Shown here in pieces: positions 11,649 to 16,383 of a stretch of DNA of 64,000 nucleotides. Under the pieces are notes generated by a model that worked only from the letters and a program-made list of their open reading frames with translations, searched no databases and was not told the DNA's origin. Within the stretch, counting starts at the first letter, position 1. Each line of letters begins with the position of its first letter. The position numbers and the translations under genes are program-made. This stretch comes from Microbacterium oleivorans (GTDB lineage: Bacteria; Actinomycetota; Actinomycetes; Actinomycetales; Microbacteriaceae): positions 1-64,000 of the forward strand of contig NZ_LSTV01000003.1 of NCBI RefSeq assembly GCF_001644225.1. The letters are read 5' to 3'.

Positions 11649-12772
11649 CCGGTCCCGTCGGAGTCGGCATCGTCGGTGCCGGTGTCATCAGCCAGACCTA
11701 CCTCGAGAACCTCACGTCGTTCCCCGACGTGAAGGTGGTCGCGATCGGCGACCTGATCCCCGAGCGCGCGAAGGCGAAGGCCGAGGAGCACGGGGTGCCA
11801 TCGTGGGGCACGCTCGAGGACGTCCTCGCCAACCCCGAGGTCGAGCTCGTCGTCAACCTCACGATTCCCGAGTCGCACATCGCGGTCTCGGTGCAGGCGG
11901 TCGCCGCCGGCAAGCACGTTTGGACCGAGAAGCCCCTGGGCCTCGACCGCGAGGGTGCGCGTCAGCTGCTGAAGGATGCCGAGGCTGCGGGTGTCCGCGT
12001 CGGTTCGGCGCCCGACACGATCCTCGGCCCGGGTTTCCAGACCGCGAAGCGCGCGATCGCCGAGGGTGTCATCGGCACCCCGCTGTTCGTGCAGACCGCG
12101 TTCCAGACGCAGGGCCCCGACCTGTGGCATCCCGAGCCCGCGTTCCTGTTCGCGAAGGGTGCCGGCCCGCTGCTCGACATGGGTCCGTACTACTTCTCGG
12201 CCCTCGTCAGCCTGCTGGGGCCCATCGCCGGCGTCGCCGCGCGCGGGTCGCGGTTCCGCACGGAGCGTCACATCCACACCGGTCCCCGCGCGGGCGAGAC
12301 CTTCCCCGTCGAGGTGCCCTCGTCGGTGCAGGTCCTCTCGACCTTCGAGGGCGGCCAGCACGGCACGCACCTGCTGAGCTTCGACTCGGCGCTCGAGCGT
12401 CACGGCGTCGTGGAGATCCACGGCACCGAGGGCTCGATCGTGCTGCCCGATCCCAACCGCTTCGAGGGGCGCACGGCGTACGTCAAGCCGCTCGGCGTGT
12501 TCCGCGACGGCATGAAGACCGAGCAGGAGTGGATCGAGGTCGAGCAGCAGGGCACGGTCGTCGGCCGCGGCCTCGGCGTGCTCGACATGGTGCGCGCCGT
12601 CGCGGAGAACCGGCCGCACGTGGCGACCGGCGAGCTCGGCTTCCACGTGCTCGACGTGCTGCTCTCGGCGCAGGACTCGGCCGAGACCGGCCAGTACCTC
12701 GAGATCGACAGCACGGTCGCACCGGTCCCGCCGGTGCCGGTCGACTTCGACCCGTTCGCCCGCACGCTCTGA
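11645..12772 (+). CDS. Gfo/Idh/MocA-family oxidoreductase
   Basis: A 375-residue NAD(P)-dependent sugar or polyol dehydrogenase. The Rossmann motif is VGIVGAGVISQTYLENL (about residues 5-21), followed by VVNLTIPESHIAVSVQA, the EKPLG signature (WTEKPLGLD, about 97-105) and a C-terminal alpha/beta domain with a substrate-site stretch GPLLDMGPYYFSALVSLLGP. The ATG overlaps the stop of the isomerase gene, so the two are co-translated. A strong hairpin at 12784-12823 ends the unit. The substrate is not identifiable from sequence. Confidence 0.9.
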   Translation: MTGPVGVGIVGAGVISQTYLENLTSFPDVKVVAIGDLIPERAKAKAEEHGVPSWGTLEDVLANPEVELVVNLTIPESHIAVSVQAVAAGKHVWTEKPLGLDREGARQLLKDAEAAGVRVGSAPDTILGPGFQTAKRAIAEGVIGTPLFVQTAFQTQGPDLWHPEPAFLFAKGAGPLLDMGPYYFSALVSLLGPIAGVAARGSRFRTERHIHTGPRAGETFPVEVPSSVQVLSTFEGGQHGTHLLSFDSALERHGVVEIHGTEGSIVLPDPNRFEGRTAYVKPLGVFRDGMKTEQEWIEVEQQGTVVGRGLGVLDMVRAVAENRPHVATGELGFHVLDVLLSAQDSAETGQYLEIDSTVAPVPPVPVDFDPFARTL

Positions 12773-12783
12773 GCCGCTGACGC

Positions 12784-12823
12784 GACGACGGCCCGGACCC
12801 TTGAGGGGGTCCGGGCCGTCGTC
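12784..12823. terminator. Bidirectional terminator hairpin, 17-bp stem
   Basis: A 17-bp perfect stem (12784-12800 with 12807-12823, GC-rich, key arm GACGACGGCCCGGACCC) with a 6-base loop lies between the convergent oxidoreductase and BLUF genes. There is no strong U-tract, as is common in high-GC actinobacteria. Confidence 0.85.
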
Positions 12824-12829
12824 GTCCGG

Positions 12830-13276
12830 TCAGCGCGGCTGGGTCGCGCGGACGCGGAACCAGAGGCTCAGCTCGCGTGCCGCCCGAAGGGTGGCCGACG
12901 GGTCGCCATGCGCTTCGAGGTCGTCGAACGTGTCACGGAATCCTTCCGGCGCCTCGGCGTCCGGGGTCGTGATGGGTTCGAAGCCCATGGTCCACTCGGC
13001 GAAGTTGCGCTCGCCGATGAACTCGTCGATGAGTACCCGGAGGTGGTCGTGGCGGGGGTCCCGTTCGATCTTCGCCATCGTGTCGCGGACGGCCTGTTCG
13101 GGGCCCTCGAGGATCTGGATGAAGCGGCCGTTCCGGTACAGCAGCATCCCCGTCACGTCCCGCTCGGCGTTCGAGGCACGGCTCTGCTCGAGGAGTTCGC
13201 GCAGCGCGCCGTCATCGAGCGGCGCGGTCGCCATGCTCGAATACACGACGGAGAAGACGGCGGGGGAGTCGGTCAT
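12830..13276 (-). CDS. BLUF-domain blue-light photoreceptor
   Basis: A 148-residue protein made almost entirely of a BLUF domain, which binds FAD and senses blue light by hydrogen-bond switching. The key residues can be placed: Tyr12 (VVYSSMA), Asn36 in SRASNAERDVTGML, Gln54 in FIQILEG, the ERDPRHDHL segment and Trp95/Met97 in FAEWTMGF. No output domain is attached, so it belongs to the short stand-alone class that must signal through a partner or its own C-terminal helices (after about residue 105). It overlaps the small gene upstream by ATGA, which makes that gene product the prime partner candidate. Confidence 0.9.
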   Translation of the reverse strand: MTDSPAVFSVVYSSMATAPLDDGALRELLEQSRASNAERDVTGMLLYRNGRFIQILEGPEQAVRDTMAKIERDPRHDHLRVLIDEFIGERNFAEWTMGFEPITTPDAEAPEGFRDTFDDLEAHGDPSATLRAARELSLWFRVRATQPR

Positions 13277-13521
13277 CGGTTCTCCCGGATCGTCAGGATG
13301 CCGGCGGTCCCGGCAACGGTCTCGGCGGACAGCGTCCGCATCGCGGAGACGAGGTCGGCGAAGGTGCCGACCGCGGTGGAGCGCATGTCGAACGCGACGT
13401 AGCGGCCGTCCCCCCGCCGTTCGATGTACCCCAGGAAGTTGCCGTCGCGACTGCCGACGTGGAAGCCGTCCTCGACGCGCGCCCAGACCGTGCCGGGGGT
13501 GGGATGGTGGTGCTCAGGCAC
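13273..13521 (-). CDS. Small protein of unknown function upstream of the BLUF gene
   Basis: I do not recognise this 82-residue protein. It has a compact, mixed composition with segments DGFHVGSRDGNFLGYIERR and YVAFDMRSTAVGTFADL, suggesting an antiparallel beta core plus a C-terminal helix. There is no signal peptide or membrane segment. The GTG start at 13521 has GTGAGG 12 to 7 bases before it, and a TAGCGT box at 13564-13559 could be the promoter. Its last codons overlap the BLUF start, so it is translationally coupled to the photoreceptor. It may be a partner in the light response or an unrelated neighbour. Confidence 0.7.
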   Translation of the reverse strand: MPEHHHPTPGTVWARVEDGFHVGSRDGNFLGYIERRGDGRYVAFDMRSTAVGTFADLVSAMRTLSAETVAGTAGILTIRENR

Positions 13522-14182: not shown

Positions 14183-14548
14183 TCAGTTCGTGCTGTCGAG
14201 GTATTCGCGCCACTGGAAGGAGTGGTCGACGGTGAGGTCGAGGATGTCACCGGGGTGGAGCCAGCCGTTCGGGATGCGAGTGATCGGGATGCCGAACGTC
14301 CGCGAGATCCCCCAGGCGGTGTCGCCTTCGACGATGACGTAGTTCGTCGGAGCGTCATCCAGGCCAGTCGGGACAGGTCCGGCAGGGCGGAGCGGCTTCG
14401 GCTGAGCCGAGGTGGGCGGCGGGACGGTGCCCATCGTCCTCGACGGGTCCGGGGCAGCGGTCTGGGCGGTGTCGAAGGTGCATCCGGCGAGCGGGACGGC
14501 GAGTAGACCAGTGACGAGGACGGAGGCGAGGTTCGCGCGGTTCCGCAC
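14183..14548 (-). CDS. LysM-domain lipoprotein
   Basis: A 121-residue exported protein. The signal peptide ends in a lipobox LAGC with the lipidated Cys at residue 23, followed by a Pro/Thr-rich linker and a single LysM-like module from about residue 69 ([19 protein letters not shown], then [10 protein letters not shown]). It would sit on the outer face of the membrane and touch peptidoglycan. The GTG start at 14548 lies only 2 bases after the stop of the larger LysM gene, so the two are one operon. A likely accessory cell-wall protein. Confidence 0.85.
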
Positions 14549-15540: not shown

Positions 15541-16383
15541 ATGGATCGTCGGGGGAAGATCATGCTCGGTATCGCCGTGGGGTCGGTGGTGGGCCTGCTG
15601 GCTCTCGCCGCGCCCGCTGTCATCGGGATGATCCCGACCGACGAGGTGGTCGCCGAGGCGCCGCCCACGTCGGCGGCACCGCCGCGGACGGCGACACCCA
15701 CGCCCACGCCTGTGCCGACGCGGCTCGCGCCCCTTCCCACGCCCGTCGAGACGACCCCGGCGCCCGAGAGCAAGTGCCTGGGCGTTCCGGCGGGCACGGA
15801 CCGCGGCGACATCTCGCCTGGAGCGACCGGCGTGGTCGAGCGCTCCAATGGGAAGGGCCTCGCGACGGTCTACCGGGTGGTCTCGGGCGACTCGTACTGG
15901 GCGATCGTCGAGCGCTTCTGCCTCGCCAGCGAGGACTTCAACAGCGCGAACAACTTCGGCGGTGCGGGCGACATCTACGCCGGCGACTACCTCGCCGTCC
16001 TCCCCGAGGGGCAGCCCGAGGCCCTGGCACTCAACGAGGCGGCCAAGGGCGGCTACCGCACGCATCAGGACTGCGACGCCATCGCGCGCATCTCGCTCGC
16101 AGAGCCCAACGCCGAAGGTCGGATCCCGGTCAGCATGTCGGGCACGATCGTCGACACCGGCAAGGGCGAGTACGCCGAGGGTCCGGTCGAGAAGGTCGAC
16201 GGCAAGCCCACGTTCTACACCGTGCAGCCGGGGGACACCTACCGTGGCATCGGCGACCGCTTCTGCGTCGATGCGATCACCGTGCAGGCGTTCAACGAGG
16301 CGGGCGGACCGGAGCACGTCCTGCAGCCCGGCGACCGCGTGCAGTTGCGGCCGACGAGCCGCACCATCGCGGCGCAGGGTTGA
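15541..16383 (+). CDS. Membrane-anchored protein with two Cys-containing LysM-like modules (paralogue)
   Basis: A 280-residue paralogue of the gene at 14551-15426, transcribed divergently from it. Residues 7-31 are an N-terminal anchor and 32-76 a Pro/Thr-rich spacer. Two modules follow: YRVVSGDSYWAIVERFCLA and YTVQPGDTYRGIGDRFCVD. The block GGYRTHQDCDAIARISL between them and VSMSGTIVDTGKGEYAEG are shared with the paralogue, as are all four Cys (KCLG, RFCLA, QDCD, RFCVD). It likely arose by an inverted local duplication. A cell-wall-binding role is inferred from the LysM pattern only. Confidence 0.8.
   Translation: MDRRGKIMLGIAVGSVVGLLALAAPAVIGMIPTDEVVAEAPPTSAAPPRTATPTPTPVPTRLAPLPTPVETTPAPESKCLGVPAGTDRGDISPGATGVVERSNGKGLATVYRVVSGDSYWAIVERFCLASEDFNSANNFGGAGDIYAGDYLAVLPEGQPEALALNEAAKGGYRTHQDCDAIARISLAEPNAEGRIPVSMSGTIVDTGKGEYAEGPVEKVDGKPTFYTVQPGDTYRGIGDRFCVDAITVQAFNEAGGPEHVLQPGDRVQLRPTSRTIAAQG

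Follow-up and report, generated by a model that had tools for sequence, protein, structure and literature searches.

Results

A small gene overlaps a stand-alone BLUF gene

The stretch of DNA analysed here (called the window throughout) comprises 64,000 nucleotides of Microbacterium oleivorans (assembly GCF_001644225.1, contig NZ_LSTV01000003.1, positions 1 to 64,000); the source genome is 2.97 Mb in 6 contigs. A gene for a stand-alone BLUF photoreceptor lies on the minus strand, directly preceded by a small gene for which we use the name SM. The features of the locus are:

13273..13521, minus strand: SM gene; GTG start, 82 aa, undescribed family
SM residues 11-71: predicted fold, a five-strand beta domain plus C-terminal helix; the tails are predicted with low confidence
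12830..13276, minus strand: stand-alone (short) BLUF photoreceptor gene; 148 aa, PF04940
13273..13276, minus strand: ATGA overlap, formed by the SM stop TGA and the BLUF start ATG; probable translational coupling
13282..13286, minus strand: GGGAG, Shine-Dalgarno-like, within the final SM codons and 5 bases 5' of the BLUF start; putative function
12845..12952, minus strand: BLUF residues 109-144, the C-terminal cap (GFRDTFDDLE...TLRAARELSLWFRVR); proposed SM docking region with pair-associated conservation
12783..12824, no strand: perfect 18-base inverted repeat with a 6-base loop, 3' of the BLUF gene

The reading frames and their junction are as the original prediction had described them, with an 82-residue gene upstream that overlaps the BLUF gene by ATGA. 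The inverted repeat separates the BLUF gene from a convergent plus-strand gene ending at 12772 and is a possible end point for transcription. Scans of the locus for T-run terminators and for sigma-70 promoters gave none. By eye, the list of open reading frames also contains two secreted proteins near the pair (window 15541-16383 and 14183-14548), which we take to be LysM-like.

The BLUF protein resembles PixD

The BLUF protein matches PF04940 over residues 8-98 (E 1.1e-29; 102.8 bits, cut-off 25). Y12, N36, Q54, W95 and M97 are invariant in an alignment of 29 BLUF sequences; we take the first three to be the flavin-site Tyr, Asn and Gln, and W95 and M97 to be the Trp/Met switch residues, with roles in flavin photochemistry. 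The family match and the invariant residues agree with the earlier description of a stand-alone BLUF with Tyr12, Asn36 and Gln54 intact. PF04940 is the sole Pfam family above its cut-off in the 148 residues, as expected for the claimed absence of an output domain. The predicted model (mean pLDDT 80) has a C-terminal helix at residues 126-145, and its top Foldseek matches are TePixD and Tll0078, both PixD-type (best E 5.2e-11), followed by other BLUF structures. Judged from sequence and model, the protein is a short (PixD-like) BLUF protein, with a predicted BLUF fold followed by a short helical stretch at the C-terminus and lacking an output domain. Hallmarks of BLUF photoreceptors in general are FAD binding and a red-shifting photocycle, and PixD forms a light-dependent decamer.

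The same genome carries a second stand-alone BLUF (L001:1375-1914; G000:C2:220539) with an intact core and no adjoining SM. Its C-terminus is unlike that of the paired BLUFs, and its nearest relatives in the BLUF tree come from three other Microbacterium genomes (L065-L067). A BLUF fragment in a further genome (L070:2395-2601, G146), matched in two pieces, is probably a decaying second copy.

SM is a selected gene of an undescribed family

The earlier reader could not assign the small protein to a family, and our searches led to the same result. SM matched no Pfam family at E <= 10, and none of 29 sequences (SM with its relatives) did so at E <= 0.1. Searches of PHROGs and of PDB sequences gave no match, NCBIfam returned a single chance-level row (E 0.061) and no SM was found in phage records. 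The predicted structure consists of five strands and one helix, with a mean pLDDT of 84-92 for blocks of residues 11-60 and below 50 at the ends. Foldseek found nothing under E 0.001 in the PDB. With VIA-align the best Z was 6.0 (MMO inhibitory subunit, OspA) and some matches reached 4-5 (SH2, AP2, YkuJ); values up to 6.0 are within the range of unrelated chains and we claim no fold relative.

The motif VEDGFHVGS is invariant in 29 SM sequences. The dN/dS of the SM core is 0.10, 0.29, 0.11, 0.13 and 0.19 against five close relatives; over 374 pairs (dS 0.05-1.5) the median is 0.38 and the maximum 1.0. Because the values against close relatives fall at 0.10-0.29, SM is, by this codon-level measure, a real protein encoded by a gene under selection.

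Every sampled Microbacterium genome with BLUF carries the pair

Searching bacterial genomes for SM led to 28 loci, which were fetched (24 Microbacterium, 2 Microbacteriaceae bacterium, 1 Leucobacter and 1 Actinomycetota MAG). BLUF is the next gene on the same strand in all 28. With start codons picked by the analyst, the two genes share a 4-base overlap (ATGA or GTGA) in 25 loci; in the remaining three they are separated by 10, 10 and 12 bases.

We then counted BLUF genes in 198 Microbacterium genomes, a sample drawn from a larger group. Sixty-five of these genomes bear BLUF (78 matches), SM lies directly upstream of 70 of the 78 matches, and the pair is present in all 65. The eight unpaired matches (seven full-length, one fragment) are extra copies, and their host genomes also carry the pair. 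These numbers use the 119 of 150 listed SM matches that score at least 47.4 bits; none of the 31 weaker ones that were dropped lies at an unpaired BLUF. The pairing is far above chance. The genome scans were a loose first pass on limited candidates, in which divergent SMs may be missed.

Beyond the genus the picture is different. Among 249 Microbacteriaceae genomes from 85 genera there were 89 BLUF matches, eight of them with SM: that of the window and seven in four other genera. The original prediction had named conservation of the pair across Microbacteriaceae as a check; it holds strongly for Microbacterium, reaches a few other genera and does not extend family-wide, as only 7 of the 87 BLUF matches outside Microbacterium in this sample are paired. 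In a sample of 296 genomes across the class, seven had SM matches, all of them Microbacteriaceae; this does not imply absence elsewhere, since Dietzia has SM (see below). Twenty BLUF loci were hand-chosen from the 89 Microbacteriaceae matches, and one of them (L076) is paired. At the unpaired BLUF loci examined no hidden SM match above 25 bits was found, and three-frame translation of the sequence upstream of seven of these BLUFs revealed none. We found no description of the SM-BLUF pair in a literature search conducted largely without subscription papers. In the accessible portions of two studies, BLUF comes up only as missing from the strains or clusters under study, or as occurring there only in the form of other photoreceptor homologues (PMC8591293, PMC6739363).

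The pair behaves as a unit

Flanking genes turn over and the pair stays. Across 21 loci whose BLUFs fall below 75% identity, no flanking ORF has matches in more than 2 of the 20 other loci, while called BLUF ORFs match 16 of 20 and SM ORFs 9-10 of 20; the calls came from a simple GC-position caller that missed true genes and called BLUF in only part of the loci, and ten of the loci had flanks of about 0.2-3 kb only. SM matches (E <= 1e-3) were also found in two of 72,556 plasmid records, both from Dietzia kunjamensis, a member of another order. BLUF directly follows SM with an ATGA junction on both plasmids, in different surroundings, which suggests that the pair has moved as a pair. The SM gene is unannotated on one of them (CP155438).

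Paired BLUFs share a C-terminal cap

BLUF C-termini are described as highly divergent and as proposed partner sites in the available text of PMC6695109. Paired and unpaired BLUFs have similar flavin-core scores (medians 140 and 121), whereas residues 109-144 differ. We scored this region with a profile of the paired rows, leaving out training rows at least 70% identical to the query and excluding the L070 fragment; the columns were picked after the alignment had been viewed, and the rows are related. The 40 paired BLUFs gave 41.7-80.5 bits (median 70.3), seven unpaired Microbacterium BLUFs 65.0, 35.5, 31.3, 11.5, 9.1, 8.6 and 4.5 bits, and 19 unpaired BLUFs of other genera a median of 1.8 bits. 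In fresh rows, eight paired BLUFs scored 35.9-62.7 bits, among them six from three other genera (54-63) and the two from Dietzia (35.9 and 38.2), and two unpaired BLUFs from Curtobacterium plasmids scored -3.7 and -0.4 bits. Core scores are the same (about 109) for a Dietzia BLUF and for the unpaired L087, but their C-terminal scores are 38 and 0.6 respectively. There are exceptions: the unpaired L064, L074, L075 and L093 have C-terminal scores of 46.7-65 bits, and the 35.5 bits of the unpaired L068 are close to the Dietzia values.

In the BLUF tree (L070 excluded) the unpaired rows from Microbacterium fall into three groups among the paired ones, two of them weakly supported, and their positions fit those that losses of SM would produce. 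The C-terminus is lost in one group (4.5-11.5 bits), weakened in another (31.3 and 35.5) and kept in the third (65.0). Both this tree (100 columns) and the SM tree (76 columns) are poorly resolved. Since the paired BLUFs share a cap that most of the unpaired BLUFs examined lack, these data suggest that the C-terminus may be the docking site of SM, with the caveat that a correlation among related sequences is not proof.

SM belongs to a wider domain family

An SM-domain match occurs in 150 of the 198 Microbacterium genomes. Among the matches listed, 63 of 67 at 80 bits or more are BLUF-linked, falling to 70 of 119 at 47 bits or more, where the other 49 have no BLUF. Frequent occurrence of the small gene without BLUF had been named beforehand as evidence against a partnership, and it is what we see in the wider SM-domain family (70 of 119 linked) and not in the BLUF-type subfamily (63 of 67 linked). 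The four BLUF-less SMs above 80 bits comprise one linked to DUF7882 (G008, L036) and three of the BLUF type, at 81-103 bits, from genomes that lack a BLUF match (G157, G167 and G109); no BLUF remnants were found beside SM in these three. As SM-domain relatives are common without BLUF, the basic role of the domain need not involve light.

Twenty of the 49 BLUF-less loci were chosen by hand, and in 14 of them (L036, L038-L044, L046-L051) a DUF7882 gene lies directly upstream on the same strand. By eye, 13 of these 14 SMs have a hydrophobic stretch resembling a membrane anchor at the C-terminal end; the loci are often near MarR genes and may represent a membrane-anchored module. A different arrangement places SM directly upstream of a MarR gene (L004, in our own genome, L071 and L073 by Pfam; L072 by eye). 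The own-genome case (L004:1438-2202; G000:C5 about 438,800) is an SM paralogue that precedes a MarR regulator and has a divergent DUF7882 gene. DUF7882 is likewise divergent to SM in L052, L053, L072 and L073; no MarR gene was found after SM in L052 and L053, and the SM tree label MarR_divDUF is defined by the divergent DUF7882 gene, not by MarR. Partner labels cluster in this tree (7 changes compared with a shuffled mean of 22.2). The BLUF-linked SMs require 5 changes and are therefore not one clean clade. In two Microbacteriaceae genomes (L158 and L161) two SM-domain stretches lie in tandem, with weak scores for the second stretch (23 and 20 bits).

According to the accessible part of PMC12227055, DUF7882 (PF25355) is the family entered in Pfam for proteins that may act as cytoplasmic transducers of cryorhodopsins, and a PH-like ring fold is proposed for it there. 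We considered SM as a DUF7882 relative and rejected this, because the profiles do not align (comparison probability 0.1) and PF25355 is unmatched in 29 of 29 SMs. On a PH-like ring fold in SM, comparison with the PDB gave weak scores and no convincing fold match. DUF7882 adjoins a rhodopsin gene in 12 of 19 lower-scoring, hand-picked Microbacteriaceae loci and in none of the 30 best loci; SM was found beside rhodopsin in none of the 19 and, by profile scan, in none of the 30. DUF7882 matches occur in 183 of the 198 Microbacterium genomes, with up to 17 in one genome and 8 in our own (G000). The latter genome has no rhodopsin match, so DUF7882 cannot serve as a rhodopsin transducer there.

Discussion

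BluF of E. coli is a BLUF protein that includes an EAL domain; its counterpart BluR belongs to the MerR-like repressors. The likeness to the present pair is that a BLUF protein acts on a separate protein; the difference is that the window BLUF has no output domain, and BluR has its repressor family. BlsA of Acinetobacter is a short BLUF whose partner is reportedly Fur, named in a paper's title. Fur is a known regulator, whereas SM is small, co-encoded and of an undescribed family. What BlsA and the window BLUF have in common is a C-terminal region that is a proposed partner site, in BlsA for regulatory partners according to the available text of PMC6695109. That short BLUFs signal through separate partners, as had been assumed, is exemplified by PixD of Synechocystis and its 43 kDa response-regulator-like partner PixE (PMC5899715, in the portion accessible). 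PixD also lacks an output domain and acts via a separate protein, and PixD-type structures are closest to the window BLUF model. PixE differs from SM, which has 82 residues, no known family and a gene overlapping that of BLUF. We rejected SM as a PixE-like response-regulator partner, given its size and the lack of a receiver-like domain (no Pfam match at E <= 10). The accessible part of PMC12227055 describes CryoRhodopsin and DUF7882, again a Microbacteriaceae photoreceptor and a small soluble protein with adjacent or overlapping genes; here, however, the receptor is a BLUF, SM is not a DUF7882 protein and SM adjoins none of the 19 rhodopsin loci.

Our preferred reading, to which we assign a probability of roughly 0.62, is that SM is the dedicated partner of the short BLUF, docking on its C-terminal cap to give a two-protein blue-light module. 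The short BLUF would bind FAD and sense blue light. SM would be translated just before it, probably from one transcript, across the overlapping stop and start codons, and would serve BLUF as its dedicated adaptor or transducer by binding to the C-terminal cap. Light may then alter the cap and hence the SM-BLUF complex, and the altered complex would change the downstream contacts of SM, if the signal does run from BLUF to SM. Overlapping genes by themselves are commonplace in operons. The partner reading is supported because the two genes are associated, because the pair recurs in another order and because the BLUF C-terminus is pair-associated; as far as such comparative evidence goes, the proposal that the small protein is the natural candidate partner is backed by the association, the Dietzia pairs and the cap. 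Points against a dedicated partner are the low share of pairs outside Microbacterium, the BLUF-less SMs, the SM tree and the unpaired BLUFs that possess the cap.

SM could instead be an accessory factor of BLUF (for folding, flavin loading, or control of dose or oligomeric state), with another protein providing the output. SM comes first in gene order and overlaps BLUF, it is tiny and of no known catalytic or DNA-binding family, and SM domains accompany several unrelated partners, all of which would suit such a role. The persistence of eight Microbacterium BLUFs (seven full-length) with no adjoining SM speaks against it, an argument of little weight given that their genomes also carry the pair; overall we regard an accessory factor as unlikely. 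It is somewhat less likely still that nothing more than co-transcription links SM and BLUF, SM having a task of its own and the overlap only setting the translation of BLUF. The 49 BLUF-less SM genes among the 119 listed matches are what one would expect in that case. The pair, however, outlasts the turnover of its neighbours and occurs together on the Dietzia plasmids, the BLUF C-terminus for the most part varies with the presence of SM, and SMs with the same partner label group together in the SM tree, though with the 5 changes among BLUF-linked SMs noted above.

Under a third explanation SM would be a small protein that binds DNA or counteracts a regulator, and BLUF would hold it back or let it go in light, in the way that PixD holds PixE, or SM would stand in for a repressor such as BluR. 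This view draws on the SM relatives directly upstream of MarR regulators and on one of the weak fold matches, that to an AP2 domain (Z 4.6). Fold matches of this kind are weak throughout, and the hydrophobic, apparently membrane-spanning ends (by eye) of nearly all DUF7882-linked SMs would be odd for a DNA binder. We judge this explanation improbable, more so than mere co-transcription.

The dedicated-partner reading would add to a field in which short BLUF signalling is understood for only a handful of proteins, with another partner in each case. A short BLUF with a separate partner is a known arrangement; the partner family is new to the libraries that we searched. At 82 and 148 residues the compact module offers a small receptor-partner test system, for which the likely contact region can be named. 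The SM domain family is, moreover, tied by gene neighbourhood to DUF7882, the little-understood putative cryorhodopsin transducers. As a speculative extension that we think doubtful, SM could be the founding domain of an undescribed actinobacterial family of signalling adaptors, soluble with BLUF, membrane-anchored with DUF7882 and in a third form with MarR. If this were true, two photoreceptor classes of one bacterial family would share one adaptor logic.
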